This document shows positions 8,583 to 23,804 of a stretch of 64,000 nt of DNA, in pieces. Positions within the stretch are counted from its first letter, which is position 1. Each line of letters starts with the position of its first letter. Made by a program: the position numbers and the translations under genes. Under the pieces are notes generated by a model. It saw only the letters and a program-made list of their open reading frames with translations, did not search any database and was not told the origin of the DNA. Source of the stretch: an uncultured Prevotellaceae bacterium (GTDB lineage Bacteria; Bacteroidota; Bacteroidia; Bacteroidales; Bacteroidaceae); NCBI GenBank assembly GCA_946415645.1, contig CAMKTJ010000006.1, positions 1-64,000 on the forward strand, in the 5' to 3' direction.

Positions 8583-9335
8583 TTATAACAAGTGGTATTT
8601 GTCTGCATACGCCAGCGCTTCCGCTGTGCTGCTAACGCCCAGTTTCTTGAAGATGCTCCTCTTGTGCGCCTTAACCGTAAAGATGCTTACATTCAGATTG
8701 CCGCCGATTCCTTTGTTATCCAAGCCTTTCTTCATGAGACCCAGAATAACCATTTCCGTTTTGCTAAGTTTGAATGTAAGTTTAATATCCTCATATATCC
8801 CTTGTTTGAAGTCGAACTTCAGGAACCCGCGTGTTTTGCTGACAATATAGCTCTCCATCTCGTTTTTTGGTGAAGTGTTGTATGTCAGCATTCCTATTCT
8901 GATACGTTTCTCTGAATCTATTATCATTGGGACAAACTGTTGGGTAATAAAGAAATCCTTACCTTTTAGTGTAATAGGGAACTCTGTGGTGCTGTAAAAG
9001 ATCTCTCCTTCTTGCAGGTCCATCTTGTGGCAATAATGCAGGAATTCCGTTCTCAGCTTAATAAGTTTATCTAAAATAGCGTCCTTAACATATACCCAAT
9101 ACGGGTTCTCGCAGTCTCTCTGCCGGTCTTTATCCGTTGCCTGGTTCAAGAACAGAAGTTTGTCGGAATGGTATAATATCTTACCATCGGGGAAACTCAT
9201 CAGTATGCAACTGGAGTTAGTCAGGAAGGCATGATATTTGGCTATCTTAACGAGATCGCTGATGTTTAGGCTATCAACCGGTCCGTTGTCTTCTCTCAAT
9301 ATGTTGGTTGTGTCCGAGTGGGATGTTTGCTCCAT
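8583..9335 (-). CDS. LuxR-family transcriptional regulator
   Basis: About 250 residues. The C-terminal 60 form a LuxR-type helix-turn-helix (SKTEMVILGLMKKGLDNKGI..VSIFTVKAHKRSIFKKLGVSS), and the N-terminal part is an unassigned sensor-like domain. I chose Met at 9335 (MEQTSHSD) because a TATTTTTG -7 box lies at 9367-9374, which would place the upstream Met (9401) outside the transcript. The gene faces away from the peptide/export cluster that begins at 9589. The intergenic region contains a 37-bp dyad (9437-9473), so it is the obvious candidate regulator of that cluster. What it senses cannot be told from sequence. Confidence 0.85.
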   Translation of the reverse strand: MEQTSHSDTTNILREDNGPVDSLNISDLVKIAKYHAFLTNSSCILMSFPDGKILYHSDKLLFLNQATDKDRQRDCENPYWVYVKDAILDKLIKLRTEFLHYCHKMDLQEGEIFYSTTEFPITLKGKDFFITQQFVPMIIDSEKRIRIGMLTYNTSPKNEMESYIVSKTRGFLKFDFKQGIYEDIKLTFKLSKTEMVILGLMKKGLDNKGIGGNLNVSIFTVKAHKRSIFKKLGVSSTAEALAYADKYHLL

Positions 9336-9366
9336 TTGCTTAAAAACAATTTGCCATATTTCTCCG

Positions 9367-9374
9367 CAAAAATA
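9367..9374 (-). promoter_or_regulatory. -7 box (TATTTTTG) for the LuxR-type gene
   Basis: Minus-strand TATTTTTG about 32 bases before the chosen start; a TTTG lies 24 bases further upstream. Confidence 0.6.
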
Positions 9375-9436
9375 TTGATTTTTTAAATAATGTGTCATCA
9401 AATTGTGTTAATAAAAACTAAATGCTATTTATTATT

Positions 9437-9473
9437 AGTCCTCGAGAACGATATGGCATAGTTCTCAGGGACT
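9437..9473. promoter_or_regulatory. Dyad (candidate operator) upstream of the peptide cluster
   Basis: AGTCCTCGAGAAC (9437-9449) faces GTTCTCAGGGACT (9461-9473), 11 of 13 pairs matching. A second small dyad TATGgCATA sits in the loop. The centre lies about 65 bases upstream of the start point implied by the -7 box at 9506, a typical place for an activator. An alternative reading is a hairpin followed by ATTTTTA, i.e. a weak terminator. Confidence 0.55.
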
Positions 9474-9505
9474 ATTTTTACTACATTTTATAAAATTTAC
9501 AGAAA

Positions 9506-9513
9506 TAAGTTTG
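9506..9513 (+). promoter_or_regulatory. -7 box (TAAGTTTG) for the peptide cluster
   Basis: TAAGTTTG matches TAnnTTTG and gives a leader of about 70 bases before the first GT32 gene. No clear TTTG lies at -33, as would fit an activator-dependent promoter. Confidence 0.6.
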
Positions 9514-9588
9514 GCGTTAATCGCAGATGCGCATAACTTAGCAGCGCAAAAAACAATTTTGCGAACCTAAAAACTGAAACATAACAAT

Positions 9589-10266
9589 ATGGGTATTAGT
9601 AAAAATATTCATCTGGTTTTTCTTCGTAAGGATGAGATAATTCCGCCCCTTTTTAAAGAATGTGAGCGTAAAATCCGCGAAATGCATCCCTCATGGAGCG
9701 TCACCTTATGGGATGAAGATACAGGTGTTCAATTTCTAAAGGATAATCTTCCAGAATATCTGGACGCATATATGTCCTTCACGCATAATGTGCAGCGGGC
9801 AGATTTCCTTCGGTTAGCGTTGGTATATGGACTGGGTGGTTTCTATATGGATATGGACATGTATCCCCTTAAGGCATTGGATAGTCTATTAGACGAATCG
9901 TTGGTATTAGCAGAGGAAATGACAGTCAATGAGGAAACACAAAGATCTCTGAATCTAAGGTATCGCATGCGAATTGCCAATTATATGTTTGGCGGCGAAG
10001 TCGGTCATCCTTTCCTACGCAGTTTGATGGATGCTATGGCAGAACGCTCAACAATAAAGGTTGCATCACAGCAAGAGATACTGGATGTCACAGGTCCCGG
10101 TTTGCTTACCGATACTTATTGGGACAATACCGAGACATATCCGGATATCACACTCCTGCGTAATGAAGGCTGGTATGTGGAACTGCCTGACGGGCGAAAA
10201 GAAACTTGCCTGTTCGGCGAATATGCTGTTTACCTGCATGCAGGTACATGGCGGAAAGAAATATAA
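9589..10266 (+). CDS. GT32-type glycosyltransferase (first copy)
   Basis: A 225-residue cytoplasmic glycosyltransferase of the Gly_transf_sug/GT32 type. Seen in sequence: an N-terminal KNIHLVFLRKDEIIP (the family's 'IPKIIH' start, modified), the NVQRADFLRLALVYGLGGFYMDMD block with the metal/sugar-nucleotide DxD at 88-90, and a C-terminal CLFGEYAVYLHAGTW that ends as in related enzymes. It is the first gene of the run that leads to the Cys-rich peptide and exporter. Its substrate may be the peptide, or a glycan needed by the system; the sequence does not decide. A second GT32 gene follows after 43 bases. Confidence 0.85.
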   Translation: MGISKNIHLVFLRKDEIIPPLFKECERKIREMHPSWSVTLWDEDTGVQFLKDNLPEYLDAYMSFTHNVQRADFLRLALVYGLGGFYMDMDMYPLKALDSLLDESLVLAEEMTVNEETQRSLNLRYRMRIANYMFGGEVGHPFLRSLMDAMAERSTIKVASQQEILDVTGPGLLTDTYWDNTETYPDITLLRNEGWYVELPDGRKETCLFGEYAVYLHAGTWRKEI

Positions 10267-10309
10267 TCCCATATACATTATTATATAGCAAGATTATATA
10301 GCAAGCAGC

Positions 10310-11026
10310 ATGATAAGAATACCCAAAATAATTCATCAGACCTGGAAGGATGAAAAACTGCCAAATGCTTTTCAACTTCTGTCAGAGACATGGCGTGAAA
10401 TGTTGCCAGATTGGGAGTACAGGTTATGGACAGACGAGATGAACCGCGAATTTGTGCGCACCTATTATCCTGATTTCTTGGAGAAGTATGACGCGTACCC
10501 AAAGAACATCCAGCGCGCTGATGCTATCAGATATCTCTTATTGCAGACATACGGTGGTTTGTACGTGGATTTGGATTTTGAGTGTTTGGAACCAGAATTC
10601 ATTACTCTTCTTGAGGATGCCGATTTCGTTGCTGGTAAAGAGCCATATGCGCATTCCAGTCGATATGGAATGGATTATATCATCTGCAATGCCCTTATGG
10701 CTTCTGTGCCTAATCACCCCTTTTTAAAGGATATTTGCGATATAATGATGAATCATCCTCATGGATGGAATGTTCGGAACAAGATTGATGTATTGGATTC
10801 TACAGGTCCTTTTCTTGTAACAAATGTTTATAATAATTACTCTCAAAAAGAAAATGTAAAACTCGTTGAGCCGGAATATCTTTACCCAATTCAATTGGGG
10901 GAAGCAAGATTAATATTTGAAGATCGAATTCCCAAGGAAATGGTTCATCGTATCAATGTGGCTTACGCCTTACACTACTTCTGGGGGACGTGGTGGAATA
11001 CAAAAACGCTCAAAGATGAAAAATAG
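10310..11026 (+). CDS. GT32-type glycosyltransferase (second copy)
   Basis: A 238-residue canonical GT32 (Och1-like) protein: IPKIIHQTWKDEKLP at 4-18, then NIQRADAIRYLLLQTYGGLYVDLD with DxD at 87-89, and a C-terminal ALHYFWGTWW. It is related to the preceding gene but clearly diverged, so the pair is an old duplication or two separate recruitments, perhaps with different acceptors. Its stop overlaps the next glycosyltransferase by 11 bases, which points to translational coupling. Confidence 0.88.
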   Translation: MIRIPKIIHQTWKDEKLPNAFQLLSETWREMLPDWEYRLWTDEMNREFVRTYYPDFLEKYDAYPKNIQRADAIRYLLLQTYGGLYVDLDFECLEPEFITLLEDADFVAGKEPYAHSSRYGMDYIICNALMASVPNHPFLKDICDIMMNHPHGWNVRNKIDVLDSTGPFLVTNVYNNYSQKENVKLVEPEYLYPIQLGEARLIFEDRIPKEMVHRINVAYALHYFWGTWWNTKTLKDEK

Positions 11027-12884
11027 TATTCATTTCTCAGTCATAATGCCTACATTCAACCAATGCTCTTTCATCAGAAGAGCGATTAAGAGTTTAGTGG
11101 AGCAAACCTATAATCATTGGGAACTTATTATCATCAATGATGGTAGTACCGATGAGACAGAGGAATTCATCTCTGACTACATCAAAGATGAGCGGGTGTT
11201 TTATATAAAGAATATGGAAAATACCGGTCTTGGACATGCTATCAATCAAGGCCTAGAGGCTGCAAGATATGATTATATTGCTTATCTTCCTTCTGATGAT
11301 TTCTATTTTCCCGACCATCTGGAAACGATGGCAAAGACATTGGAAAAAGATGATGTTGTTTTAGCATATAGTGGGCTTCAGAATGACACCAATGATACAA
11401 TGAACCGCAATGCTTATAATCAAACGAAACAGGTGCTGAATGGTCATTGTGTGCAGTTGGTCCAAATAGCTCACAAGAAATACAACACTTTACGCTGGAC
11501 AGAGCGAAATGAATTTATCACAGAAGATCTCTATCTGATGTTTTGGAGCAAACTTGCGGACAAGGGTTTTTTTGTACCTACAAATGTTGTGTCTTGTTTT
11601 TGGACAAGTCATCCGCATCAAAGACATCGTGTCATAAGCGAAAAATATGGAGGTGGACTGAACAAATACAGGAATTATTATAAGCCAAATACACCGCTTA
11701 GGGTCAAAGTGTCCAGGAATAAGTTTGTTGACGAAGAGGAGTTATATAAGGATTTTCGTGTAACAATGCCAAAATGCAAAGAGCCTTTAAAGATACTCGT
11801 TGTTGGCGAGTTGGCATATTACCCTGAACGTATTTATGCCTTGGAACAAGCTGGACACATTCTTTATGGGCTTTGGGACCCCAATCCCATGTATTCATTC
11901 ACTACTGTAGGTCCGTTGCCTTTTGGACATGTGACGGATCTCTCTCTTGATAATTGGGAGAAAGAACTCACAGAAATTAAGCCAGATATTATATATGGAT
12001 TACTAAGCAGTTCTGCTGCCCCCTTTGTCTATGAAGTAGTAAAGAAAGTGCCCCAAATTCCATACGTGTGGTGCTTTAAGGAAGGACCTTCTATGGTGCT
12101 TAAAATGGGTAATTGGGGAAAATTGATATATCTGTATCAGCATGCTGCAGGCAGAATTTTCCTTAATGAAGTAGCAGAGCAATGGTATAATCAGTTCTTG
12201 CCTACTTCCGATACCCCTGCTATGATAATGGATGGTGAATTGCCTAAAAAGGATTATTTCAAGAATACCTTCTCCCCAAAGCTTTCAGATACAGTTGGTG
12301 GAATACATACTGTCGTTACAGGCAGGATGATAGGTATTTCAAATGATGACATAAAAGCTCTTGCGCAAAATGACATACACATTCATCTGTATACCCAAAA
12401 CTATTATGACGGTAATAACCGTGAATGGCTTGTTAAACTGGCTCCCAATCATTTCCATGTCCATCAACATGTGTTTGCAGACAATTGGACAGAGGAGCTT
12501 TCAAAATATGATGCAGGATGGCTTCATTGCCACAAAAGCAATAACAATGGTAACATGCTAATGACCACTTGGGATGATTTGAATCTGCCCGCACGAATCG
12601 CCACGTATGCAGCAGCTGGATTACCAATAATTCTTCCTGATAATACAGGGAATGCGGTGGCATCAAACAGAATTGCGGAGAAATACGATATAGGTCTTAC
12701 GTATAAAGAAAGAGAATACCTGATTTGCTTACTTCAGGAAGAAGTAAAAACACGCAAACATACAAATAACATGTTGAAGTGCAGGATGGAATTCAGTTTT
12801 GACTATCACGTGCCTCGGCTTGAGGAGTTCTTCCGTTCAGCAATAAAATACAAAAAGAAAGAATCGCATGAAGGGTCATATTGA
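11016..12884 (+). CDS. Two-domain glycosyltransferase (GT2 + GT-B-like)
   Basis: About 622 residues. Start set at MKNSIHFSVIMPTFNQ (11016), where the GT2 fold begins; a longer frame from 10917 would overlap the previous gene by more than 100 bases. Residues 1-220 are a family 2 glycosyltransferase (NDGSTDE at 41-47, LPSDDFYFP near 91-99). From about 260 a second Rossmann-like domain begins (LKILVVGELAYYPERIYALEQAGH). Its C-terminal part (ARIATYAAAGLPIILPDNTGNAVA) resembles the donor-binding half of GT-B enzymes. It overlaps the LanC-like gene by 17 bases. In known glycocins a GT2 enzyme glycosylates the peptide; here that role is inference. Confidence 0.85.
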   Translation: MKNSIHFSVIMPTFNQCSFIRRAIKSLVEQTYNHWELIIINDGSTDETEEFISDYIKDERVFYIKNMENTGLGHAINQGLEAARYDYIAYLPSDDFYFPDHLETMAKTLEKDDVVLAYSGLQNDTNDTMNRNAYNQTKQVLNGHCVQLVQIAHKKYNTLRWTERNEFITEDLYLMFWSKLADKGFFVPTNVVSCFWTSHPHQRHRVISEKYGGGLNKYRNYYKPNTPLRVKVSRNKFVDEEELYKDFRVTMPKCKEPLKILVVGELAYYPERIYALEQAGHILYGLWDPNPMYSFTTVGPLPFGHVTDLSLDNWEKELTEIKPDIIYGLLSSSAAPFVYEVVKKVPQIPYVWCFKEGPSMVLKMGNWGKLIYLYQHAAGRIFLNEVAEQWYNQFLPTSDTPAMIMDGELPKKDYFKNTFSPKLSDTVGGIHTVVTGRMIGISNDDIKALAQNDIHIHLYTQNYYDGNNREWLVKLAPNHFHVHQHVFADNWTEELSKYDAGWLHCHKSNNNGNMLMTTWDDLNLPARIATYAAAGLPIILPDNTGNAVASNRIAEKYDIGLTYKEREYLICLLQEEVKTRKHTNNMLKCRMEFSFDYHVPRLEEFFRSAIKYKKKESHEGSY

Positions 12885-13689
12885 AAATTTACATAATGTA
12901 AGTCCTACACTGCATCGTATTGCGAACACTATACTTTGCAATTATAGCATGACTACTACTCCTAATCTTGTAAACGGTAGGATGGGCGTATGCCTGTTTC
13001 TTTATGAGTATGCAAGGCTAACAGGAATTAAAGAATATGAGGACATTGCAGATGAAATGATAGACCTCATATTTAAGGTGTTGCGAAAAGGGCAGAATGA
13101 GGACAATATCAGTAGCCTCTCAGGCGTAGGGATTGGCATAATTTATTTAATTACACACCAATTCCTTGAAGATACTGATGAGCAAGACTCTCTGAAAGAA
13201 GTTGATGAGTACTTGTTGAATATAATTGAAACGGCTAAGGTCTCATCAGAAATGGTTGTTCAATCGGCTCTTTACTTTATATATCGTTACATACATTATA
13301 ATAAAGGACTTGATAAGGGGTATTGTTACAGGCTGGCAGGACAACTTGTAAGGCTTTTCCAAAATCAAGAGGATTCAGGTGATAATGAAAGCAAATTGTC
13401 GGCATATATTTTACATAATGCAATGCTTATTTGTAAGACCAATGCAGAATCTGAGGAGTCTCCATACAGAGATAATATGGTTTTCTTCGACACTTTGTAC
13501 CTCAAAAGTATAGAACAGATTACAGCTGAAAATATATGGTATAATGTCTTGCTCGGAAATGAAACTGTCGAGTGCCTGGTGGATGAGAAATATCTTGATG
13601 TCTTGTGCCGAAACTGTTTCTATGATGCAGACCGTGTTGTTGGCATATTGTGCAGTTATGGTTTAATGTTAATGAATCGAAATAATTAA
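12868..13689 (+). CDS. Truncated LanC-like protein without zinc ligands
   Basis: 273 residues resembling the first half of the LanC-like alpha/alpha barrel: NLVNGRMGVCLFLYEYARLTG..YEDIADEMIDLIF, then SSLSGVGIGIIYLI, the repeated G-x-x-G signature of the fold. True LanC cyclases are about 400 residues and carry Cys, Cys-His zinc ligands in the second half; no CHG or equivalent is seen here, so cyclase activity is unlikely. The precursor's six Cys could suit thioether chemistry, but there is no LanB or LanM dehydratase nearby. It may act as a scaffold or a partner of the fused glycosyltransferase with which it overlaps. It ends 5 bases before the VKOR fusion. Confidence 0.72.
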   Translation: MKGHIENLHNVSPTLHRIANTILCNYSMTTTPNLVNGRMGVCLFLYEYARLTGIKEYEDIADEMIDLIFKVLRKGQNEDNISSLSGVGIGIIYLITHQFLEDTDEQDSLKEVDEYLLNIIETAKVSSEMVVQSALYFIYRYIHYNKGLDKGYCYRLAGQLVRLFQNQEDSGDNESKLSAYILHNAMLICKTNAESEESPYRDNMVFFDTLYLKSIEQITAENIWYNVLLGNETVECLVDEKYLDVLCRNCFYDADRVVGILCSYGLMLMNRNN

Positions 13690-13694
13690 GTATT

Positions 13695-15224
13695 ATGAAT
13701 ATTGTAGAGGTATTATTAAAGGAATTAAAGGTAAAGCACTCCAAATCATTTATAGAGGAAAATTATGTAAATGCGCCGGATAGCGATAACATGCTTGGGA
13801 TACAAAGAATATTGTCTCGCTATGGTATAGAAACTGTAGGTGTTCATTTCCAGAATAAGGAAGAGGCTGGGCTTACATTCCCTTGTGTATTACATTGGGA
13901 AAATTATACTGTAGTTGGTATTGATACTGATGGTAATAGGATCAAGTATTACTTTGATGGTCAATATATAACAGAGGAGATTAGTAGGTTTAATGAGAAA
14001 TGGACAGGCGATGCACTTTTCCTGACAAATGTAGATAATGCAAAAGAACCTACATATGTCCAAAATAGGATAAATGACTTATATGATCTTACCATACGTG
14101 GTTTCTTTTTTGTCCTTATTACCTGTTTGGGGGTTATGTATCTTATAAGAAATGGCATAACTAATCCGAGAGCTATCAATATGGTATTTGATGTATTGGG
14201 ATTTGCTATTTGCACTTTGCTATTCCAGAAGCAAATAAACAAGGGGAGCACTCTTACGGATAAGGTTTGCTCTTTACTTCATAAAGGCGGGTGCGACACT
14301 GTGCTGGAAACAGATGAGGCAAAATTTCTAGGTGTTATTTCGTGGACGGAAGTGGGTTTAACTTATTTTACATCCCGAATAATATTTGGTAGCTTTTGCG
14401 AGAATAATCTTTTGATTTTACAAGTAGTAGGTTGGTTTGCTATGCCGTATGGTATTTGGAGTATATGGTTTCAGGCGTTTAAAGCAAAGCATTGGTGTAT
14501 TATCTGCTGTTCAATCCAAGCCATTATATGGATTTCTGGCATTTATAATATCATAGTTTACGCCCATTCTATGATTACAATATCGGGTATAGTGATTTTT
14601 GTCGTTTCTGGCATTACAATCAATATTGTCATTCATGCATTGTCTAAGTTGTATTCTATAGGAGACAAATATAATAGAATAAGTAAGGATTTTATTGAAT
14701 TAAAGTTGAACAAAGCCATTTTTAAAACAGCTTTGTTGGAATCGAAGGAAATAATAGTTGATAAGGCGGACTCCTCAATTATCTATGGAAATAAGTCAGC
14801 ATCCGAAACTCTAACAGTATTGACCAATCCACATTGTGAGCCTTGTGCTAGAATGCACAAACGACTCTTGCATGTAATGGAGAATAATCCCAATGTCAAA
14901 ATACAGTATATCTATTCTTCATTTAATGAAGATGTAAAGAGTAGTAGTTTATTTTGCATAGCTGTATACCAGCAAAAAACTTATAAGGAGGCTCTAAAGA
15001 TTCTTGATGCATGGTATCAATATGGTAGATTTCAGAGGAAGTCTTTCATTGAAAAAACGGGTGTTAATATTTTCGACCCAAAAGTAACAGAGGAATATTC
15101 GAAACACACTTTATGGAAAGAACACAATGGTATTGATGCTACTCCCACGATTGTATTCAACGGGCACAAAATGCCTCAATATTATACTGTTGAAGATTTC
15201 ATTTATCTAGATAGTGAAGGGTAG
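13695..15224 (+). CDS. C39-like / VKOR / thioredoxin fusion (disulfide-forming membrane protein)
   Basis: 509 residues in three parts. Residues 1-115 look like a C39 peptidase fold (SDNMLGIQRILSRYGIETVGVHF.., PCVLHWENYTVVGID) that parallels the exporter's C39 domain but lacks the catalytic Cys and His. Next comes a VKOR membrane domain with loop cysteines C192 and C200 (CX7C) and the active-site C268-I-I-C271. The C-terminal thioredoxin domain carries C381-E-P-C384 and cis-Pro484. All cysteines for a quinone-to-VKOR-to-thioredoxin electron relay are present, so it should make disulfides in the periplasm. The dead C39 domain may bind the double-Gly leader and bring the precursor to the oxidase (inference). 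Confidence 0.85.
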   Translation: MNIVEVLLKELKVKHSKSFIEENYVNAPDSDNMLGIQRILSRYGIETVGVHFQNKEEAGLTFPCVLHWENYTVVGIDTDGNRIKYYFDGQYITEEISRFNEKWTGDALFLTNVDNAKEPTYVQNRINDLYDLTIRGFFFVLITCLGVMYLIRNGITNPRAINMVFDVLGFAICTLLFQKQINKGSTLTDKVCSLLHKGGCDTVLETDEAKFLGVISWTEVGLTYFTSRIIFGSFCENNLLILQVVGWFAMPYGIWSIWFQAFKAKHWCIICCSIQAIIWISGIYNIIVYAHSMITISGIVIFVVSGITINIVIHALSKLYSIGDKYNRISKDFIELKLNKAIFKTALLESKEIIVDKADSSIIYGNKSASETLTVLTNPHCEPCARMHKRLLHVMENNPNVKIQYIYSSFNEDVKSSSLFCIAVYQQKTYKEALKILDAWYQYGRFQRKSFIEKTGVNIFDPKVTEEYSKHTLWKEHNGIDATPTIVFNGHKMPQYYTVEDFIYLDSEG

Positions 15225-15299
15225 ATTCTAATTAAAGTGTAGCCGGTTAGGATTTGCTGAGTTTTTAGGCTGCATAAAAAACAATTAAATTACATTATT

Positions 15300-15596
15300 A
15301 TGAAGAAATTATCAAAACTGAGCTTGTTAGGAGAAATGGATCTCCTCTCAAAAGCAGAACTTCGACAATTAATCGGATCTAGCGATGGTGGATGTCCAAG
15401 CACAAAAACAGAATGCACTGGACAAAGATGCACTCCTTGGGGTGGCGAAAATGGATTAGCACATTGCCGTTGGGAAGAGAATGATAAGATTAAAGGATGT
15501 CTATGTGAACCTGACAATCAAATGCTATCTGATGGCTATGGTTATGGCTATGGTTATGGCTATGGTTATGGCTATGGCCCTGGTGGCTACTTTTAA
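15300..15596 (+). CDS. Cys-rich precursor peptide with GG/GS-type leader and (GY)7 tail
   Basis: 98 residues. The leader MKKLSKLSLLGEMDLLSKAELRQLIGS has the LSxxELxxLxG signature of Bacteroidota double-glycine leaders; cleavage by the C39 exporter could follow GS (26-27) or GG (30-31). The core has six cysteines (C32, C39, C44, C56, C67, C69), enough for three disulfides, and few hydrophobic residues. It ends in seven exact Gly-Tyr dipeptides (79-92) and GPGGYF. It lies between the disulfide-forming fusion protein and the outer-membrane barrel and is followed by a strong hairpin, which fits a precursor gene expressed more highly than its neighbours. Fate (bacteriocin, signal, adhesin) is unknown. 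Confidence 0.85.
   Translation: MKKLSKLSLLGEMDLLSKAELRQLIGSSDGGCPSTKTECTGQRCTPWGGENGLAHCRWEENDKIKGCLCEPDNQMLSDGYGYGYGYGYGYGYGPGGYF
15534..15575 (+). repeat. 12-bp DNA repeat encoding the (GY)7 tail
   Basis: ggctatggttat is repeated 3.5 times without error. Alternating ggc/ggt codons keep a strict 12-bp period, so the tract could gain or lose Gly-Tyr units by slippage without frameshift. Confidence 0.9.
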
Positions 15597-15615
15597 TATA
15601 ATCTCTTCTTTTCTG

Positions 15616-15639
15616 CCCGGGGGGGGATTCCCCTCCGGG
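15616..15639 (+). terminator. Hairpin after the precursor gene (attenuator-like)
   Basis: CCCGGGGGGG..CCCCTCCGGG forms a stem of about 10 bp within 20 bases of the precursor stop. There is no clear T run, so it more likely stabilises the upstream message or reduces read-through than ends all transcription. Confidence 0.65.
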
Positions 15640-15672
15640 ATATTATTACAAACATCACATCTTTGATAATAC

Positions 15673-18552
15673 ATGAAGTTATCTTGCTTTAAAAATATCA
15701 TCTTCATTATCTGTTTTCTCGGAATATTTCAAACATCCTTCTCTCAGGAGCGTGATTCAATATATATATATCAAGATATAAGCGATTCCTTTACTAAGCA
15801 TGGCATCCCAGAAGTGTTTGTTACCTTGGCGGATACAAACGGAGTTCTAATAGATACACTGTGGGCAAAAAGCAGATACAACTCAAATAGAGCGGCATGG
15901 TCTAAGTATGTTTCACGCAAGCCGCATACTTTTTTATTGAAAGCTGAGCATCCCGATTATGAAACTGTGGTGCAAAGAATCTCGATGAACAAACCTGCCC
16001 GACAGATGGAATATCGATTCCCTGAATTATTCATGAAACGCAGAATGAAGGAAACTACCCTGAAAGAGGTTACCGTTTCAGCCACACGTGTTCAGATTGC
16101 ATATAAGGGTGATACAATCGTTGTGAATGCACAGGCATTTAAGATTCCTGAAGGCTCAATGCTGGACGCTTTAGTGGCCAGTGTTCCGGGAGCTGAGTTG
16201 CGTGATGACGGAACCATATATATGAACGGGCGTAAAGTAGATTATCTGACACTTAATGGGAAGGATTTTTTCAAAGGCAGAAACCGCATGATGCTGGACA
16301 ACCTTCCATATTTTGTAGTCAATAAACTAAAGTTCTATGAAAAAGATATGCCGCAGAGCCAGATGATCCACCAAGATACAGGCGAAAAAGACTATGTAAT
16401 GGATGTGGAAATGAAGCAAGAGTATTCTATAGGATATACGCTCAACGCAGAGGCTGGAATAGGTACTGACAACAAATGGGTGGCAAGAATGTTTGGCCTT
16501 CGGTTTACAGATAACTCCCGTCTGGTAATATTTGGTGGTGAAAATAATATTAATGAGGTAAGACAACCTGGAAGAGACGGATGGTATGATAAGTCGAAGA
16601 TACCCACAGGAGAGAAAGAGGTAAAAATGATTGGCGGAAATCTTAATATTGATGACAAGCATGGGCGTTTTGTAGAGAATGTGGAGGCATCGGTAAACTG
16701 GACGGATAATAAAGACGAAACACGAACTTCACAAGAGACTTTCCTTCCAGAGGGTAGTGCATATAGTCGTTCCCAGGATATTAACCGTAACAAGAACTTT
16801 TCCAGCTCGCTCTCTAATAAACTGGAATTAAAGAAGATTGGGTTAATCTTTAATACAGACGGAAATTACAGTAAACAACAGGGCGATGGCCTATCTCGAT
16901 CTGCATCGTTCGTTTCAGATCCCTCAATGTTTACATGTATAGAAGTGCTTGACTCTATCTTCTCATCACCTGTTAATCCGTTGTTACAAGATATTAATAT
17001 TAATAAGGTGCTTGATCAAGGTAAATATGATTCCTATAACTATAGTTTCCATCAGTCCATAGACTGGGATAAGACACTGCCATGGGGGGATGATGTTGTT
17101 ATATCTTTAAACGGGAGCTATGATAAGTCTGCCAATGACCGCTTCAGCCGATATAATCTAACATATCCTAATGGTAACCAGAGGGATAACATGCAAGATC
17201 GTTTTATGCCATATCGTCATCATGGCTATTCATACAGTGCGAAGGGTGGATATCGTCTACATTTATTAGGAGGATGGCATGTAAATTGGTCATATAATTA
17301 CGCACAACAGTATAGTAACACTGAGAGTAACCTTTACAGGTTAGACAGGTTAGGTGTTGATACGGATTTCGGAATTCTTCCTTCGTTATCAGACTATTTG
17401 AAAACCAAGGATGATGATAATAGTTATCATAGTCTTTACATGACCAAAACTCATAGGAATAATATTAGCTTAAGCCATGTCTATTATGGAAGGAAAACAT
17501 ATTTTCTTTTCTCAATAATGGCACCTGTCATTTATAAAAAAGAAGATGTACGTTACTGGCGGTCTAACCAATATAGCGTTTTAAAACAAGGTAATTGGTA
17601 TTTAGAGCCAGAGGCCTGGATAAGATACCAAATAAAGAGAGATAGTTGTAAAGTTATGTTTGATTGGATTGAAGCTAAATTTGGCAGCTATGTTCAAACA
17701 CCCAATCTGGTTCAGATGCTTGATTTTGAAGACAGTTCCAATCCTCTGGCCATAAGCAAAGGAAATCCGAATTTAAAGACTTCACGGAGACACCATTTAG
17801 AATTACAAATGTATGGAGGAGCATGGGAACGACGCTATGGTGTGGCATTAGACATAAATATTATGGATAATATGGTTGCAAACGGTTTTACCTATAATCC
17901 TCAAAATGGCGTGTATACCTACTGCCCGGAGAATGTGAATGGCAATTGGAATGCACGGGTTTCGCCATACTTTAGAACGAATCTTGATAAAGATAAACAT
18001 TATCAGTTAGAAAGCAAAACAGGTTTCAACTATGTCCATAATGTAGATTTAGCCATGCTGGAAGGTTTCAACACAAGCCAGCTGAGCAGAGTGAACCACT
18101 ATATTACATCGGAAGATCTGAAACTGTCCTATAACAAGAATGTTACTCGCTTGGAATTGATAGGGACTTTTGCGTGGAATGTGGTTAATCGCGAGCAGGT
18201 GAATTATAATAACATTAATGCTTTCGACTTCAGCTATGGCCTGAGTGGCCAATATACCTTCCCCTGGAAGATCCAGTTGGCTACCGACCTAAAAATGTAC
18301 AGCCGTCGCGGATACGAGGAATCATCCATGAACACGAATGAGTTGGTATGGAATGCATCTGTTTCGCGTCCGTTCCTTAAAGGAAAACTCGTGGTTAAGG
18401 TTGATGCCTTTGATATATTGGGACAATTGTCCAATACGCGCTATACAGTTAACGGTCAAGGACGTACAGAGACCTGGCAGCTCATGATGCCTCGTTACGC
18501 CATGTTGAGAGTTGCTTATAAGATTAACAAAATGCCGAAGAATAAAAAATAA
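15673..18552 (+). CDS. TonB-receptor-like outer-membrane barrel of the peptide cluster
   Basis: 959 residues. A signal peptide (IIFIICFLGIFQTSFSQ) leads into a carboxypeptidase-regulatory-like beta domain (about 25-125) and a plug-like domain that begins at LKEVTVSATRVQIAYKGDTIVV. A long beta-barrel follows, of the OMP_b-brl type, rich in alternating aromatic strands. No nearby TonB/ExbB/ExbD. It sits between the precursor and its exporter and ends in the start codon of the ABC gene (1-base overlap). It could be the receptor that takes the peptide up again, a surface partner or a self-protection protein; TolC already provides an exit channel. Confidence 0.8.
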   Translation: MKLSCFKNIIFIICFLGIFQTSFSQERDSIYIYQDISDSFTKHGIPEVFVTLADTNGVLIDTLWAKSRYNSNRAAWSKYVSRKPHTFLLKAEHPDYETVVQRISMNKPARQMEYRFPELFMKRRMKETTLKEVTVSATRVQIAYKGDTIVVNAQAFKIPEGSMLDALVASVPGAELRDDGTIYMNGRKVDYLTLNGKDFFKGRNRMMLDNLPYFVVNKLKFYEKDMPQSQMIHQDTGEKDYVMDVEMKQEYSIGYTLNAEAGIGTDNKWVARMFGLRFTDNSRLVIFGGENNINEVRQPGRDGWYDKSKIPTGEKEVKMIGGNLNIDDKHGRFVENVEASVNWTDNKDETRTSQETFLPEGSAYSRSQDINRNKNFSSSLSNKLELKKIGLIFNTDGNYSKQQGDGLSRSASFVSDPSMFTCIEVLDSIFSSPVNPLLQDININKVLDQGKYDSYNYSFHQSIDWDKTLPWGDDVVISLNGSYDKSANDRFSRYNLTYPNGNQRDNMQDRFMPYRHHGYSYSAKGGYRLHLLGGWHVNWSYNYAQQYSNTESNLYRLDRLGVDTDFGILPSLSDYLKTKDDDNSYHSLYMTKTHRNNISLSHVYYGRKTYFLFSIMAPVIYKKEDVRYWRSNQYSVLKQGNWYLEPEAWIRYQIKRDSCKVMFDWIEAKFGSYVQTPNLVQMLDFEDSSNPLAISKGNPNLKTSRRHHLELQMYGGAWERRYGVALDINIMDNMVANGFTYNPQNGVYTYCPENVNGNWNARVSPYFRTNLDKDKHYQLESKTGFNYVHNVDLAMLEGFNTSQLSRVNHYITSEDLKLSYNKNVTRLELIGTFAWNVVNREQVNYNNINAFDFSYGLSGQYTFPWKIQLATDLKMYSRRGYEESSMNTNELVWNASVSRPFLKGKLVVKVDAFDILGQLSNTRYTVNGQGRTETWQLMMPRYAMLRVAYKINKMPKNKK

Positions 18553-20762
18553 TGAGACGATCCTTTCCTCACTATCACCAATTGGATTCTGCAGATTGTG
18601 GGCCAACATGTTTGCGGATGATAGCCCGCCATTATGGACGCTGCTATACCCTAGAAACCTTACGAGAACGAAGTTTTATCACTCGCGAGGGAGTATCCAT
18701 GCTTGGTATTAGTGATGCTGCCGAGAGCATAGGTATGCATACCATGGGGGTTAAGATTAGTGTGGAGCAATTAGCAAAGGATGCCGTACTACCTTGCATT
18801 CTGCATTGGAATCAGAACCACTTTGTGGTACTCTATAAGGTAAGCAGGCGCAGAGGAGGCAAATACGTGTTCCATATTGCTGACCCCGCTACACAGAAAG
18901 CGGCATTCCGTCAGGAAGAACTGGAAAAGTGCTGGCTGGCGAAGAAAGAAGGAAACAGGGACGTTGGTATGGCTTTGCTGTTGGAACCTGGCCCTGAATT
19001 TATGGATTATGAAGACGAAAGACGCTCTGCCAGACGCGACCTCTTCTTCTTCGTACGCTATCTGACCCCTTACAAGAAGCAGTTCCTGCAGTTGATTGTG
19101 TCAATGCTTTTGGGTATGGGGCTGCAGATGATCTTCCCGTTTCTGACACAGGCATTGGTGGATGTAGGTATCCGTTCTGCCAATATGGGTTTCATAACCC
19201 TTATACTTATTGCGCAATTGGTACTGTTCCTTTCGCAGCTTTCTGTGGGTTTCATCCGTTCATGGATAATGCTGCATGTGAACTCACGAATAGATATTTC
19301 CCTTATCTCGGACTTCCTGATGAAGTTGATGAGGTTGCCCCTGCGGTATTTTGATACCAAGAATACGGGTGATATCATGCAACGTATAGGTGACCACGGA
19401 CGTATAAAAGGCTTCTTGATGGGCAGCTCCATCAATATTGTCTTCTCGCTTTTCAACTTCATTGTCTTTGGCGCCATCCTTGCTTACTATAACGTACTTA
19501 TACTGGTAATCTTCCTGGTTGGTAATACGGGGTATGTTATCTGGATTCTCTCGTTCATGAAGTTTAGACGAGAATTGGATATCAGGCGTTTCAGTCAGTC
19601 GGCAAGTGAACAAAGCAAGATTATCCAGTTGATACAGGGTATGCAGGAGATAAAACTGAACAACTGCGAGAAACAGAAACGATGGGAATGGGAGCGCATA
19701 CAGGTGAAACTGTTTAAAATAGGCATCCGCGGACTGGCCATAGGACAGATACAGCAGATTGGTACGGTGTTCTTTACGCAATCAACAAGTATTGTTATCT
19801 CCTTTCTTGCTGCCAAAAGCGTTGTGGAGGGCGACATGACTCTGGGTATGATGATGTCCCTGACATACATTATCGGACAGGTTTCAGCCCCCATAGGAGA
19901 ATTCATTGGCTTTGCACAGGCTTGGCAGGACGCCAAGATAAGCTTGGAACGATTGAATGAGGTACACCGACGCAGAGATGAGGAACAGGGAATACATGCC
20001 AAACTGACTTGTCTGCCGGAGAAAAAGGATATCAGATTGGAGAATGTAACATTCAGCTATAGCGGAGCAAATCGTGACTATGCACTGGAAGACGTGTCGC
20101 TGACCATTCCTGAGCATAAAGTGACAGCCATAGTAGGTGCCAGTGGAAGTGGGAAAACTACTATCGTTAAACTGTTGCAAGGATTTTATACGCCCAACAA
20201 GGGAAGTATAAAGATTGGCGAAACACCATTGGGAATGATAAATCCGCATCTATGGCGTAGTAAAACCGGGTCAGTAATGCAGGAGAGCTACATCTTTTCT
20301 GACACCATTGCTCATAATATTGCAGTCAGTACAGACCGAGTGGATACGGAGAGGCTGAGACATGCCGTAAAGGTGGCTAACATCGGAGATTTTATTAATT
20401 CACTGCCGATGGGATATGACACAAAGATAGGTATGGAAGGAAGTGGTATCTCACAGGGGCAGCGGCAGCGTATCCTTATTGCAAGGGCGGTGTATAAGAA
20501 TCCTGAGTTTATTTTCCTGGATGAGGCCACCAACTCCTTGGATGCCAACAACGAGGGTGTCATCATGGCAAATCTTGAAGAATTCTATAAAGGAAGGACT
20601 GTCCTGATAGTAGCACACCGACTTTCTACTGTCAGGCATGCTGACAATATTATAGTCTTAGACAAGGGACACATAGTGGAAGAAGGTACACACGAGGAAT
20701 TGACAGAGAAGAGAGGTGTATACTATACACTTGTCAAGAACCAATTGGAGTTGGGAAAGTAA
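18552..20762 (+). CDS. C39-peptidase ABC exporter (bacteriocin-type, PCAT)
   Basis: 736 residues, inner membrane. The N-terminal C39 peptidase is intact: Q10, C16 (SADCGPTC), H90 (NQNHFVVL) and D111 (IADPA). It should cut double-Gly leaders during export. A six-helix ABC membrane domain covers about 165-460, and the nucleotide-binding domain has Walker A GASGSGKTT near 529 and the signature GISQGQRQR followed by IFLDEATNSLD. It forms a tripartite system with the HlyD and TolC genes that follow. Its obvious cargo is the peptide at 15300-15596. Confidence 0.95.
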   Translation: MRRSFPHYHQLDSADCGPTCLRMIARHYGRCYTLETLRERSFITREGVSMLGISDAAESIGMHTMGVKISVEQLAKDAVLPCILHWNQNHFVVLYKVSRRRGGKYVFHIADPATQKAAFRQEELEKCWLAKKEGNRDVGMALLLEPGPEFMDYEDERRSARRDLFFFVRYLTPYKKQFLQLIVSMLLGMGLQMIFPFLTQALVDVGIRSANMGFITLILIAQLVLFLSQLSVGFIRSWIMLHVNSRIDISLISDFLMKLMRLPLRYFDTKNTGDIMQRIGDHGRIKGFLMGSSINIVFSLFNFIVFGAILAYYNVLILVIFLVGNTGYVIWILSFMKFRRELDIRRFSQSASEQSKIIQLIQGMQEIKLNNCEKQKRWEWERIQVKLFKIGIRGLAIGQIQQIGTVFFTQSTSIVISFLAAKSVVEGDMTLGMMMSLTYIIGQVSAPIGEFIGFAQAWQDAKISLERLNEVHRRRDEEQGIHAKLTCLPEKKDIRLENVTFSYSGANRDYALEDVSLTIPEHKVTAIVGASGSGKTTIVKLLQGFYTPNKGSIKIGETPLGMINPHLWRSKTGSVMQESYIFSDTIAHNIAVSTDRVDTERLRHAVKVANIGDFINSLPMGYDTKIGMEGSGISQGQRQRILIARAVYKNPEFIFLDEATNSLDANNEGVIMANLEEFYKGRTVLIVAHRLSTVRHADNIIVLDKGHIVEEGTHEELTEKRGVYYTLVKNQLELGK

Positions 20763-20788
20763 GTTGATAGACGATAAATATCATACAG

Positions 20789-22129
20789 ATGAGTAAGGAA
20801 GAAATAGAAAAAGTGGAGGAAGAGGAAATCAATCTGCGATCGGAAGAGGTGCAGGAAATAATGGGACGAGTTCCACCTGCAATAGAACGATATGGTATTG
20901 CTGTGATAGCTTGCATTACACTATTCTTAATAGTCGGCAGTTTTTTTTTCCGTTACCCTGATGCTATAGATGCACCAATTGTAATAACGAACTCTACGCC
21001 TCCCGTCAACATTATATCAAAAACCAACGGGAAGATTGTAGAGATCTTGAAGCAGAATGAAGATTCCGTTCACGTTGGAGAATTATTGGGCGTAATTGAA
21101 AGCGATGCAGATTACAAAGATGTGCTGGCGTTGGAGGATATGGTGAATCAGTTTCTGGCAGAAAAAATAACTGATAACCAAATGGTCCAATGGATGTCAG
21201 GACGGGAATTGATATTAGGGGGCATGCAAAATGAATATCTGTCATTTAAGACTAGCCTGACTGATAAAATCCGTGTAAAAGAAAAAAAATACCTTCCCCA
21301 AAAGATAGAAGTGGCGAAGGAACGCATAGACTCCAGAGCAAAACTTGAAAGCAAAGAAAAGAATCTGCATGTAATTAATATAGAGCAGGAAGCTATTGCC
21401 TATGAGATATTCAAGCGCGACTCTTTGCTACATTCCAACAAGATGATATCCGATGAGGAGTATGAACGGGCTTCTTTAACGTTTTATCAGAGCAAGCAAG
21501 GCCCTGTTAACCGGGATGTTGCAGATGAGCAGTTCAGGATGCAGCGGATTAATGAAAAGGAAAACCTTTTGGATCTTGAACATCAGTATGACGAGTCAGT
21601 AAACACTCATGAGCAGAATTGTAATAGTGCATTACGACAATTGCGTGCAAGTATTGTTAAATGGGAGCAAATATATATTATGAGAAGTCCTATTGACGGC
21701 GTCCTGAATTATACAAGTGTTTGGAATAAAAACCAGACAGTCAATGTGGGGGAGGCAATATTTATTATTGTACCTGACAAGATGATGAAGCCTATAGGTA
21801 AAGCTCTTGTCCCTCCAACAGGTATGGGTAGAATTAAAGTTGGCCAAAAGGTTATCGTGAAAGTAAACAATTTCCCAGATGAGGATTTCGGAAATTTGGT
21901 TGGAAAGGTAGCATTCATATCTAAGATTCCAACCTCAGAAGGTGTATATATGGTGGATGTTGATTTCCCGGAGGGGCTTGTTACTATTTTCCATAGGCGA
22001 CTTCCTGAGACCTTACAATTAACCGGTACATCACAAATTGTTGTGGAGAACCGGCGTTTGGCAGATTTGTTCATTCAGCCTGTCAGACGTCTGATGAAAT
22101 CCCAGGAAACGCTTAACAAGGCTGAATAA
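20789..22129 (+). CDS. HlyD-family periplasmic adaptor
   Basis: 446 residues. A short charged cytoplasmic start is followed by one membrane helix (about 36-56, YGIAVIACITLFLIVGSFFF), a biotinyl-lipoyl-like half-motif (NIISKTNGKIVEIL near 73-86), and a long helical coiled-coil region (about 165-290). The second lipoyl half (MRSPIDGVLNYTSVW) and a beta-barrel part complete the fold. It bridges the C39 ABC exporter and the TolC channel. The stop overlaps the TolC start (1 base). Confidence 0.92.
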   Translation: MSKEEIEKVEEEEINLRSEEVQEIMGRVPPAIERYGIAVIACITLFLIVGSFFFRYPDAIDAPIVITNSTPPVNIISKTNGKIVEILKQNEDSVHVGELLGVIESDADYKDVLALEDMVNQFLAEKITDNQMVQWMSGRELILGGMQNEYLSFKTSLTDKIRVKEKKYLPQKIEVAKERIDSRAKLESKEKNLHVINIEQEAIAYEIFKRDSLLHSNKMISDEEYERASLTFYQSKQGPVNRDVADEQFRMQRINEKENLLDLEHQYDESVNTHEQNCNSALRQLRASIVKWEQIYIMRSPIDGVLNYTSVWNKNQTVNVGEAIFIIVPDKMMKPIGKALVPPTGMGRIKVGQKVIVKVNNFPDEDFGNLVGKVAFISKIPTSEGVYMVDVDFPEGLVTIFHRRLPETLQLTGTSQIVVENRRLADLFIQPVRRLMKSQETLNKAE

Positions 22130-23574
22130 TGAATACATACAGGATCCTGATTACTGCTATCCTTTTTTCTGCATATAGCTGGTGTTATTCCCAGAGTTTG
22201 CAGGAGATGATAACTATTGCAAAGCATCAGTCGTTGGATGCCTCATACATCAAACATAAGAGAGTAAATGCTGAACTGGCCTATAAATATTATAGGGCGA
22301 ATCTCCTGCCGGAGATAAAGTTAACCTCAATACCTATGCGGTACAGCAGCGATGTGGTTGAGCGCTACTCTTACGATGATGACCGTACCGTGTATAGGGC
22401 TCAGCAATCCTTGTATTCGGCTACCAATGTAATGCTGAAACAGAATGTCGGTTTCCTGGGCGGATATGTCTATATGGAATCAGACCTCCGATACTACAGG
22501 ACATTACAGAATGAAACGAGCCAGTTTACTTCAGTCCCTTTCAGGATAGGTTACAACCAGAATCTGGTGGGATATAATCCGTACAAGTGGGCCAGGAAGG
22601 TTGAGAAGATGAATTTGAGCTTAAGTGAAAAGGAGACGGCGGCCGGGTTGGAGGAGATAGCCATAGAGACAATAAACCGGTATTTTACCATTGTCATTCT
22701 GAAAGAACAACTGAAACAAGCCAGGACAAAGTTCCTGACCTGTGATTCCTTATATCAGACTGGTGTATATAGAAGTAAGTTAGGCGGGATTAACAATAGT
22801 GATTTGTATGAGTTGAAGATTGAACGGAACAGATCTGAGACGGAGATTGTTGAGCTGGAATCAAAAATTGAGACTGAGAAGTTCTCTTTTGCCCAGTTCC
22901 TGCAATTGACAGATACTACCCTGTTCCACTTTGAGGTTCCAACGGATGTGCGTGACATAGATGTTCCGTTAGACAAGGCGCAAAATCTGGCATTGGAGAA
23001 TTCTTCTCTTATCCTGAATTGCAAAAGATCTAAGATTCAGAATGAACAGGCAGAGGCGCAGGCGAAAACTCAACGTTTCCTGGAGGCAAGTCTTAGCGTG
23101 AACGTAGGCTGGCATCAGGTTGCGGATAATTTCAGGGGTGTATATAAAGGACTTTTGAACGAACAGTCAGCTTTGGTAAATGTGACCATCCCTTTGGCGG
23201 ATTTTGGCCGCAGGAAGACACAACTCGCACAGATTAGGGAAAATATCGAGCTGGACATTATAAATGAGAAGAAAGCTACGGATAATGTTATAGAGGAAGT
23301 AGTGGGCAGAGTCTCATACATGACAATCAACCGACGTAAGGTAAACAGCTGTGCTGAGACATATGAGCTGGCGCAGATGTTCTATAAGGAAGCGCTTGAA
23401 TCATATAAGTTAGGACGTAACCCTTTCTCTAAAGTGTGTGAAGCCCTCATCCGGCAAAAAATGGCGTTGGCAGACTATTACAATGCCATGCGTGATTATT
23501 GGGTGAATTATTATGAGATAAGACGCATGACGCTCTACGATTTTGAAAAGGAGTGTCCTTTATCTCCTAAATAG
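22129..23574 (+). CDS. TolC-family outer-membrane channel
   Basis: 481 residues with signal peptide (ILITAILFSAYSWCYS) and the usual two long helical repeats of outer-membrane efflux proteins (for example LSEKETAAGLEEIAIETINRYF and LGRNPFSKVCEALIRQKMALADYYNA). It should complete the exporter across the outer membrane. It is the last gene of the cluster before the terminator at 23765. Confidence 0.92.
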   Translation: MNTYRILITAILFSAYSWCYSQSLQEMITIAKHQSLDASYIKHKRVNAELAYKYYRANLLPEIKLTSIPMRYSSDVVERYSYDDDRTVYRAQQSLYSATNVMLKQNVGFLGGYVYMESDLRYYRTLQNETSQFTSVPFRIGYNQNLVGYNPYKWARKVEKMNLSLSEKETAAGLEEIAIETINRYFTIVILKEQLKQARTKFLTCDSLYQTGVYRSKLGGINNSDLYELKIERNRSETEIVELESKIETEKFSFAQFLQLTDTTLFHFEVPTDVRDIDVPLDKAQNLALENSSLILNCKRSKIQNEQAEAQAKTQRFLEASLSVNVGWHQVADNFRGVYKGLLNEQSALVNVTIPLADFGRRKTQLAQIRENIELDIINEKKATDNVIEEVVGRVSYMTINRRKVNSCAETYELAQMFYKEALESYKLGRNPFSKVCEALIRQKMALADYYNAMRDYWVNYYEIRRMTLYDFEKECPLSPK

Positions 23575-23614
23575 AGTTTTATGATGTGTTGTTATCTTTT
23601 CTTGTGCTTGTTGC

Positions 23615-23740
23615 ATGTTGAATAGATTGGGTGAAGAGGCTATACAGTTTGCAAACTGTCATATGTTTGGGACTGTGGAACATATAGTAGCAGACAAGCG
23701 TCTGATAGACAAGAATGGGATTATGAAATCATCGAGATAA
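23615..23740 (+). CDS. Possible 41-residue ORF at the end of the cluster
   Basis: ATG at 23615 opens 41 codons (starts MLNRLGEEAIQFANCHMFGT, ends IDKNGIMKSSR) between tolC and the terminator. There is no membrane segment or leader motif. If real it could be a small accessory or immunity product, but nothing beyond position and an open frame supports it. Confidence 0.3.
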   Translation: MLNRLGEEAIQFANCHMFGTVEHIVADKRLIDKNGIMKSSR

Positions 23741-23764
23741 AGTTTAAGGTAAATAGTTGGTAAT

Positions 23765-23804
23765 GCCTGCCAGCCCCTCGTGAGAGGAGTGGCAGGCTTG
23801 TTTT
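23765..23804 (+). terminator. Rho-independent terminator of the peptide/export cluster
   Basis: GCCTGCCA..TGGCAGGC outer stem with an inner CCCTC-gtga-GAGG stem, followed by TTGTTTT. This is the first strong terminator after the precursor region and marks the end of the operon. Confidence 0.9.

Follow-up and report, generated by a model that had tools for sequence, protein, structure and literature searches.

To our knowledge, and as far as they were met in the literature searched, the characterised ribosomally synthesised and post-translationally modified peptides (RiPPs) that are both glycosylated and disulfide-bonded all come from Gram-positive bacteria. Here we describe a gene cluster in a 64,000-nucleotide stretch of DNA from an uncultured Prevotellaceae bacterium (contig CAMKTJ010000006.1, positions 1 to 64,000; hereafter the window), in which ten co-directional genes on the plus strand (9589–23574) encode three glycosyltransferases, a LanC-like protein, an oxidase of the VKOR type, a Cys-rich precursor peptide, an outer-membrane protein (OMP) and an exporter. 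All ten had been listed in an original prediction made from the DNA letters alone, and all were found. The idea behind that list, a system that makes, modifies, oxidises and exports a Cys-rich peptide, is well supported by the analysis presented below.

The glycocins (sublancin, glycocin F and thermoglycocin/orniglycocin), in the available part of PMC12457901, resemble this locus in combining a glycosyltransferase, thioredoxin-type proteins and a C39 ATP-binding cassette (ABC) exporter on a Cys-rich peptide, and their known cleavage site other than Gly-Gly, Gly-Lys, is comparable to the Gly-Ser site predicted here. A C39 peptidase-ABC exporter and a thiol oxidoreductase are both present in the operon, as in glycocin clusters, the oxidase being a VKOR fusion and not free thioredoxins. 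Unlike the glycocins, the operon has three glycosyltransferases, a LanC-like partner, the VKOR fusion, and HlyD, TolC and OMP components for a double membrane, and it contains no SunS-type enzyme. A search of the genome carrying the window with the SunS model TIGR04195 at E ≤ 1 listed four matches, none on the window's contig, the best scoring 34 bits against a cut-off of 350; a SunS-type glycocin was rejected because no match exceeded the cut-off. The glycocin analogue proposed originally holds only as an analogy: no glycosyltransferase of the operon was listed against TIGR04195 at that threshold, and on our best reading the system would be glycocin-like in its working without being a glycocin.

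The bacteroidetocins (class IIf), as far as the available part of PMC6671954 describes them, share with the operon their occurrence in Bacteroidetes, a dedicated thiol oxidoreductase, a C39-type ABC transporter and, in bacteroidetocins A and B, an even number of Cys. Their leaders comprise 15–16 amino acids and the cores of A and B about 42 with four Cys, compared with 27 and 71 amino acids and six Cys in the window. Unlike these peptides, the operon adds glycosyltransferases and the LanC-like protein, and the string "glycosyl" is absent from the main text of PMC6671954. The third comparison concerns clusters BGC3–5 of Bacteroidales, which combine radical S-adenosylmethionine (SAM) enzymes with LanC sequences lacking the zinc ligands, as reported by Fernandez-Cantos and colleagues (PMC10352776, available part). 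These clusters are similar in having a zinc-less LanC-like protein, a leader peptide and, in BGC4, a C39 exporter, and BGC3 also contains a glycosyltransferase. In contrast to them, the operon is devoid of a radical SAM enzyme (none by Pfam among its ten proteins) and has VKOR oxidation, and coupling or fusion of LanC-like proteins with glycosyltransferases is not described in that part of the paper. A radical SAM enzyme does occur near a GT2 and LanC-like pair in one relative (L037). Regarding the TIGR04149/TIGR04157 cassettes, the relatives' enzymes best matched TIGR04157 at 297–358 bits, below the cut-off of 400, and the precursor gave no NCBIfam match to TIGR04149 at E ≤ 0.1.

Pairing of a zinc-less LanC-like protein with glycosyltransferases

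The LanC-like gene (12868–13689) had been named as such in the original prediction. The match to PF05147 was above the cut-off, but it covered only positions 4–99 of 350, and the LanC zinc ligands (C...CH) are missing: the CH dipeptide is absent from the window protein, and CHG is absent from all 33 relatives. NCBIfam matches to LanM and LanL were confined to the LanC region of these models and scored well below the cut-off. A phmmer search of the PDB with the protein returned one chance match only, the family profile retrieved LanKC, LanM and NisC chains (E 4.1e-05 to 0.078), and Foldseek with the predicted model gave no match at E ≤ 0.001. This is the one LanC-like gene counted in its genome and, judged by its sequence, it encodes no working cyclase.

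The genomic partners of this gene family were examined in at least 78 named Bacteroidota loci containing a relative of the VKOR fusion (from the best 80 of 81); counts were made on the 61 of 78 loci that reach 12 kb, the 17 shorter ones being left out, and glycosyltransferases were counted only when they resembled any of seven query enzymes (E ≤ 1e-4). Every locus with a LanC-like gene carried a glycosyltransferase (27/27), as compared with 12 of the 34 loci without one (Fisher p 4.8e-08). For 30 of 33 LanC-like genes the distance to a glycosyltransferase gene is at most 55 bp, and in 23 of these 30 cases the two touch or overlap. A second survey used the LanC-like profile alone on 399 family-level genomes and was not anchored on VKOR. 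Matches were obtained in 55 of the 399, and a glycosyltransferase was adjacent or fused in 28 of the 30 best LanC-like loci; 12 of these 30 are DNA already among the earlier loci or the window, and 16 of the remaining 18 have a glycosyltransferase.

Several proteins combine both domains in a single chain. Pfam matches for both were found in L162, L172, L173, L174, L176, L049, L070 and L039, with the LanC-like matches of L173 and L039 below the Pfam cut-off, whereas the LanC-like part of L160, L175 and L177 was detected by phmmer and profile only. The arrangements comprise GT4 followed by LanC-like (L162, and L160 by phmmer), two GT2 stretches with LanC-like (L172–L174, and L175 and L177 by phmmer and profile only), a single GT2 with LanC-like (L176), LanC-like with GT4 (L070), GT6 and GT11 with LanC-like (L049), and DUF707, LanC-like and GT2 in one 1337-residue protein (L039). 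The last of these unites relatives of two neighbouring window genes, GT2 and LanC-like, which share an overlap of 17 bp. The LanC-like domain thus stands beside or is fused to GT4, GT2, GT32, GT6/GT11 and other glycosyltransferase types, and no description of such fusions was met in the available text of the open-access literature searched.

The pairing and the fusions suggest that the LanC-like domain guides the precursor to the glycosyltransferase. Our main new point, which extends beyond what had been flagged originally and is of more interest than it, is that the zinc-less LanC-like domain is an apparent partner of RiPP glycosyltransferases, as judged from sequence. The prospects are about even for a broader claim, namely that Bacteroidota have a large, as yet undescribed family of peptide glycosyltransferases for which this domain is the general module of substrate recognition, mixed and matched across VKOR/disulfide and radical SAM clusters and defining a new class of glycosylated RiPPs.

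Recurrence of the gene set across Bacteroidota

In the 61 long loci, same-strand matches were obtained for glycosyltransferases in 39, LanC-like proteins in 27, C39-ABC exporters in 39, HlyD in 27 and OMP in 18, and the corresponding numbers in 18 control stretches were 0, 0, 2, 1 and 1. The controls are 18 of 20 contig starts (two short ones were dropped) and not random draws, 15 belonging to the window's genus and three to two further genera; the test loci come from across Bacteroidota, and related loci among them are not independent (L073 and L074, for example, match the same DNA). Compared with these control stretches, clustering of such genes exceeds chance. The original prediction had staked its case on the co-occurrence of glycosyltransferase and peptide genes in other genomes; they were found together in many Bacteroidota, with the order shuffled. 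Dysgonomonas sp. ZJ279 (L056) combines the VKOR fusion with GT32, precursor, GT2, UDP-galactopyranose mutase, GT2 and LanC-like genes. A metagenome-assembled genome (MAG) of Bacteroidales (L060) has VKOR fusion, precursor, ABC, HlyD, LanC-like, GT4, GT32 and GT32, and a Tannerella MAG (L103) has VKOR fusion, two precursors, LanC-like, GT4, a GT32+GT4 fusion and ABC. In Bacteroides sp. 519 (L070), a precursor similar to that of the window (phmmer E 8.2e-06) stands beside GT2, the LanC-like+GT4 fusion and the VKOR fusion. The loci thus have the kinds of parts in common, in shuffled order. A first scan of genome contigs had found no relative.

Two other small proteins were observed in these loci. 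At 18911–19495 (plus strand) of L039, near a C39 exporter, lies the gene of a 194-residue protein that bears a leader of the Gly-Gly type; by eye, its Cys/His/Asp-containing core resembles a small domain of the cysteine-peptidase type. A weak DUF3244 match was obtained for a small protein that looks secreted, encoded at 10200–10565 (minus strand) of L021 and also in L048, L065, L072, L077 and L079; among the 78 loci, such a protein lies upstream of the fusion in five, immediately so in four, and one control stretch was also matched.

The precursor peptide

The precursor gene (15300–15596) encodes 98 amino acids, predicted to consist of a 27-residue leader and a 71-residue mature peptide that contains the six Cys noted originally and ends in a Gly-Tyr repeat tail. 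No Pfam family and no NCBIfam model (E ≤ 0.1) matched it. A search of 5.8 billion proteins yielded 20 homologues with a similar leader. The leader is strongly conserved across the family (consensus MKKLSKLSLLGEMDLLSKAELKQLVG), and the core is variable, with the consensus C-x(n)-C-x-G-x-C-x(n)-G-x-C-x-W-x(n)-C-x-C in the homologue alignment. A constant leader before a variable core is the classic mark of an exported modified peptide. The double-Gly leader of the original prediction did not hold up: the "DGG" that was probably meant is not conserved among the homologues, whereas a G[S/Q/A] site is, the last leader position being Ser, Gln or Ala. Together with the positions of L(-12), E(-8), L(-7), L(-4) and G(-2) in the leader, a spacing rule that is in part general background and in part taken from the available text of PMC12457901, this places the predicted C39 cleavage after Gly26-Ser27 and not after Gly-Gly.

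The Gly-Tyr tail is encoded by a perfect 12-bp tandem repeat of 3.8 copies (15532–15578). The number of Gly-Tyr units differs between the window precursor and its 87%-identical homologues P0001 and P0002, suggesting that the tail is probably prone to slippage. At least two Tyr occur among the final 14 residues in 18 of the 21 family members, the window's included. The structure prediction of the precursor had a mean predicted local distance difference test (pLDDT) score of 54, and the predicted structure found no PDB match at E ≤ 0.001. The glycosylated residue could be Tyr, Ser or Thr, and the first places to look would be the Gly-Tyr tail in the window and the (Gly-Ser)n stretches found close to a GT25-type enzyme in both L065 and L094.

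The VKOR fusion and its proposed role in disulfide formation

The fusion of VKOR and thioredoxin that had been predicted (13695–15224) was confirmed, and it proved to be a triple fusion with a further C39-like domain at the N-terminus (PF03412, PF07884 and PF13462). The catalytic Cys and His of C39 peptidases were found in none of 63 C39-like domains of VKOR fusions, as against 37 of 37 neighbouring exporters for both residues. The columns were set by the window's ABC exporter as reference row, and the VKOR-fusion rows had a gap at the Cys column in 15 of 63 and at the His column in 53 of 63, with a Cys within four columns in two of 63. In eight aligned VKOR fusions the invariant Cys are the two loop Cys and the CxxC of VKOR and the CxxC of thioredoxin. 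Hydropathy indicated five hydrophobic segments in 41 of 63 fusions, six in 17, four in three and seven in two. Matches to the VKOR fusion were found in 14 genomes of the genus, several of them partial; that of G116 resembles the C39 domain of an ABC exporter.

Precursors near VKOR fusions were collected with a leader regular expression (within 4.5 kb, same strand), giving 62 unique leader-bearing cores. The number of Cys was even in 55 of them (binomial 2.4e-10, treating the cores as independent), with 1, 3, 4, 5, 6, 7, 8 and 9 Cys in 2, 1, 16, 2, 31, 1, 8 and 1 cores, respectively. One VKOR and no DsbB were found in the 86.6%-complete genome carrying the window, and the oxidase therefore looks dedicated to the operon. 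In the available part of PMC6671954, Coyne and colleagues describe Bacteroides as having no general disulfide machinery and consider that the thiol oxidoreductase adjoining the bacteroidetocin genes likely forms disulfides.

The glycosyltransferases

The three glycosyltransferases announced by the original prediction are two GT32-type enzymes and one GT2 enzyme by Pfam. Both GT32 proteins are of the DXD type (GT32a, 9589–10266, PF04488 E 1.1e-17; GT32b, 10310–11026, PF04488 E 4.8e-18), and phmmer related GT32a to an initiation-specific alpha-1,6-mannosyltransferase (9n3s, E 3.1e-07). Homologues of GT32b on the strand of the VKOR fusion occur in seven of the 78 loci (L056, L060, L062, L081, L084, L103 and L111). 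NCBIfam at 0.1 returned nothing for either GT32 protein, the VKOR fusion, the precursor or the OMP. The third gene (11016–12884, with its ATG at 11016; searches with the protein began one codon upstream, at 11013) encodes a two-domain protein with GT2 at the N-terminus (PF00535 E 6.6e-36) and a C-terminal half that is at best weakly GT-B-like, with a weak profile match to glucosyltransferase 4w6q (E 0.0086). This two-domain protein is rare, being found at E ≤ 1e-30 in at least five of the 399 family genomes, the window's included (a lower bound, three candidates being scored per genome), and one of the five matches is a fragment with an internal stop. It stands beside LanC-like, UDP-galactopyranose mutase, radical SAM enzyme and C39-ABC genes in G456, is fused with LanC-like beside TolC, HlyD and C39-ABC in G328, and lies beside barrels and C39-ABC in G221, where the following open reading frame (255 amino acids) has no Pfam match. 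Four relatives (L037, L056, L070 and L110) have a UDP-galactopyranose mutase gene close to that of the GT2 enzyme, which suggests galactofuranose donors there. As the likely sugar of the window's system, galactofuranose was rejected because no such mutase was found in its 86.6%-complete genome.

Proposed pathway and rival explanations

Taken together, the operon probably makes one secreted, disulfide-rich and likely glycosylated peptide, with glycosylation in the cytosol, cleavage during export and oxidation in the periplasm; this order follows from the known sites of nucleotide sugars and oxidising enzymes. In the cytosol, the 27-residue leader would be recognised by the zinc-less LanC-like protein as adaptor, and the GT2 enzyme together with the two GT32-type enzymes could build a short glycan on the core, the latter extending or capping it. 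The C39-ABC exporter would cut after Gly26-Ser27 and, with HlyD and TolC, move the 71-residue core out, as expected from these families. In the periplasm, the VKOR-thioredoxin fusion would oxidise the six Cys to three disulfides, its protease-dead C39-like domain plausibly serving in substrate docking, and the barrel may provide exit, anchoring, self-protection (immunity) or uptake. Direct observations comprise the parts themselves, the recurrence of the set, the absence of catalytic residues, the tendency to even Cys numbers and the pairing and fusions of LanC-like proteins with glycosyltransferases; glycosylation of the peptide is probable from this gene partnership. If the proposal is true, Bacteroidota, a dominant gut group, hold a widespread toolkit for glycosylated, disulfide-bonded RiPPs, in which a dead cyclase has been given the new task of guiding glycosyltransferases and an oxidase carries a fused, protease-dead C39 domain; the role of the zinc-less LanC proteins of Bacteroidales would become addressable by simple co-expression. 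The class would be new only if peptide glycosylation holds.

A number of observations weigh against this proposal. In L164, a LanC-like gene and a leader peptide occur with no glycosyltransferase found within 1.5 kb; in the second exception among the 30 best loci, the gene next to LanC-like reads N; and L158, counted among the 28, has only a fragmentary glycosyltransferase. L147 has a LanC-like homologue (no PF05147 match at 0.01) and a leader peptide, with no glycosyltransferase detected in 20 kb. The 12 loci with a glycosyltransferase and no LanC-like gene indicate that the latter is not always needed, and the second survey is not fully independent because its profile was built mainly from genes beside glycosyltransferases. 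None of the loci read has its genes in exactly the order of the window. Cys numbers are odd in seven of the 62 cores and in five of 21 members of the precursor's own family. Matches to the precursor occur in two of 139 genus genomes, the window's included, one with internal stops, and in at least two of 399 family genomes, the window's included (a lower bound, at most 13 candidates being scored per genome). An extra helix before the VKOR domain could put the C39-like domain in the periplasm, which would weaken the idea of leader docking. No conserved glycosylation sequon was found by eye. Core composition is near-equal in loci with and without glycosyltransferases: the Ser/Thr/Tyr fraction, one of six compositions tested, was 0.254 (n=33) and 0.218 (n=29), respectively (p 0.018), and Ser/Thr alone gave p 0.13.

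One alternative is that the peptide is bacteroidetocin-like, disulfide-bonded and unglycosylated, and that the glycosyltransferases act on another molecule (OMP, capsule or lipopolysaccharide) and have no more than the operon in common with it. Polysaccharide loci often contain GT32 and GT2 enzymes. Moreover, neither a glycosyltransferase nor a LanC-like gene was detected on the same strand in 22 of the 61 long loci, so that oxidation and export seem workable without them, and synthetic bacteroidetocins without disulfide formation were still potent (PMC6671954, available part). Against it stands the recurrent tight coupling of glycosyltransferases and LanC-like proteins, including fusions, beside precursors and C39 exporters across genera, and we regard this explanation as unlikely. 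Far more improbable is a lanthipeptide, in which the LanC-like protein would cyclise Cys onto dehydrated Ser/Thr. The PF05147 match lies above the cut-off and the core contains Ser/Thr and Cys, but no Pfam family of lanthipeptide dehydratases or kinases matched any of the ten proteins, the CHG and W[CS]xG motifs are absent from all 33 LanC-like relatives, and both the VKOR oxidase and the even number of Cys favour disulfides; lacking a dehydratase and zinc ligands, the lanthipeptide was rejected.

A third explanation retains the chemistry and differs in the product, which would be a signal or a surface or adhesive peptide and not an antibacterial one, with the barrel as receptor or anchor. The beta-barrel gene between precursor and exporter, which recurs in 18 of 61 loci, the variable Tyr-rich tail and the lack of Pfam matches to immunity-type families among the ten proteins agree with such a product. 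Against it, Pfam gave no sensor kinase among the ten, and a constant leader followed by a variable, Cys-rich core is the usual build of an antagonistic peptide; we consider this version possible, though short of an even chance. The glycosylated, disulfide-bonded peptide remains our preferred explanation.

Operon layout and genomic setting

The 2.89-Mb assembly carrying the window is 86.6% complete and can be called a gut-type Bacteroidales genome, and the window has about 46% G+C. Gaps between the ten genes are at most 76 bp or are replaced by small overlaps. GT32a and GT32b are 43 bp apart, GT32b and GT2 overlap by 11 bp, and 5 bp separate LanC-like from the VKOR fusion; the precursor follows the fusion after 75 bp and precedes the OMP gene by 76 bp. 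The latter encodes an outer-membrane beta-barrel (OMP_b-brl_3, 15673–18552, PF14905 E 9.7e-11) and overlaps by 1 bp the gene of the C39 peptidase-containing ABC exporter (18552–20762; PF03412, PF00664 and PF00005). After 26 bp comes the HlyD-type periplasmic adaptor (20789–22129, PF13437 E 2.8e-12), which overlaps by 1 bp the TolC-type (OEP) outer-membrane channel (22129–23574, PF02321 E 5.7e-22).

The single strong terminator of the original prediction corresponds to a terminator-like hairpin at the operon end (23765–23797, plus strand, -23.5 kcal/mol, z -4.5), which was absent from the list of a simple terminator scan. It is not the only one: terminator scan and folding located another strong hairpin directly 3' of the precursor gene (15616–15639, plus strand, -23.0 kcal/mol, z -3.4). 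This G+C-rich hairpin is possibly a partial terminator or an mRNA stabiliser, and is a candidate attenuator, through which precursor mRNA could come to exceed that of the exporter. An Rfam scan at gathering scores found one tRNA and nothing else. The regulator counted with the cluster originally does exist as a LuxR/GerE-type gene (PF00196 E 3.2e-14), but it is divergent from the operon (8583–9401, minus strand) and lies outside 9437–23804; by its position, it is a candidate operon regulator. Downstream of the operon, 24556–25776 and 26254–26796 encode an AAA_25 ATPase and an HU-HIG protein, and a mobile or genomic-island region may adjoin the operon. Further along, 30548–32632 encodes a Peptidase M60 (enhancin-like) protein with a weak F5/8 type C match; mucin-directed proteases of the M60 type are known from gut Bacteroidales.

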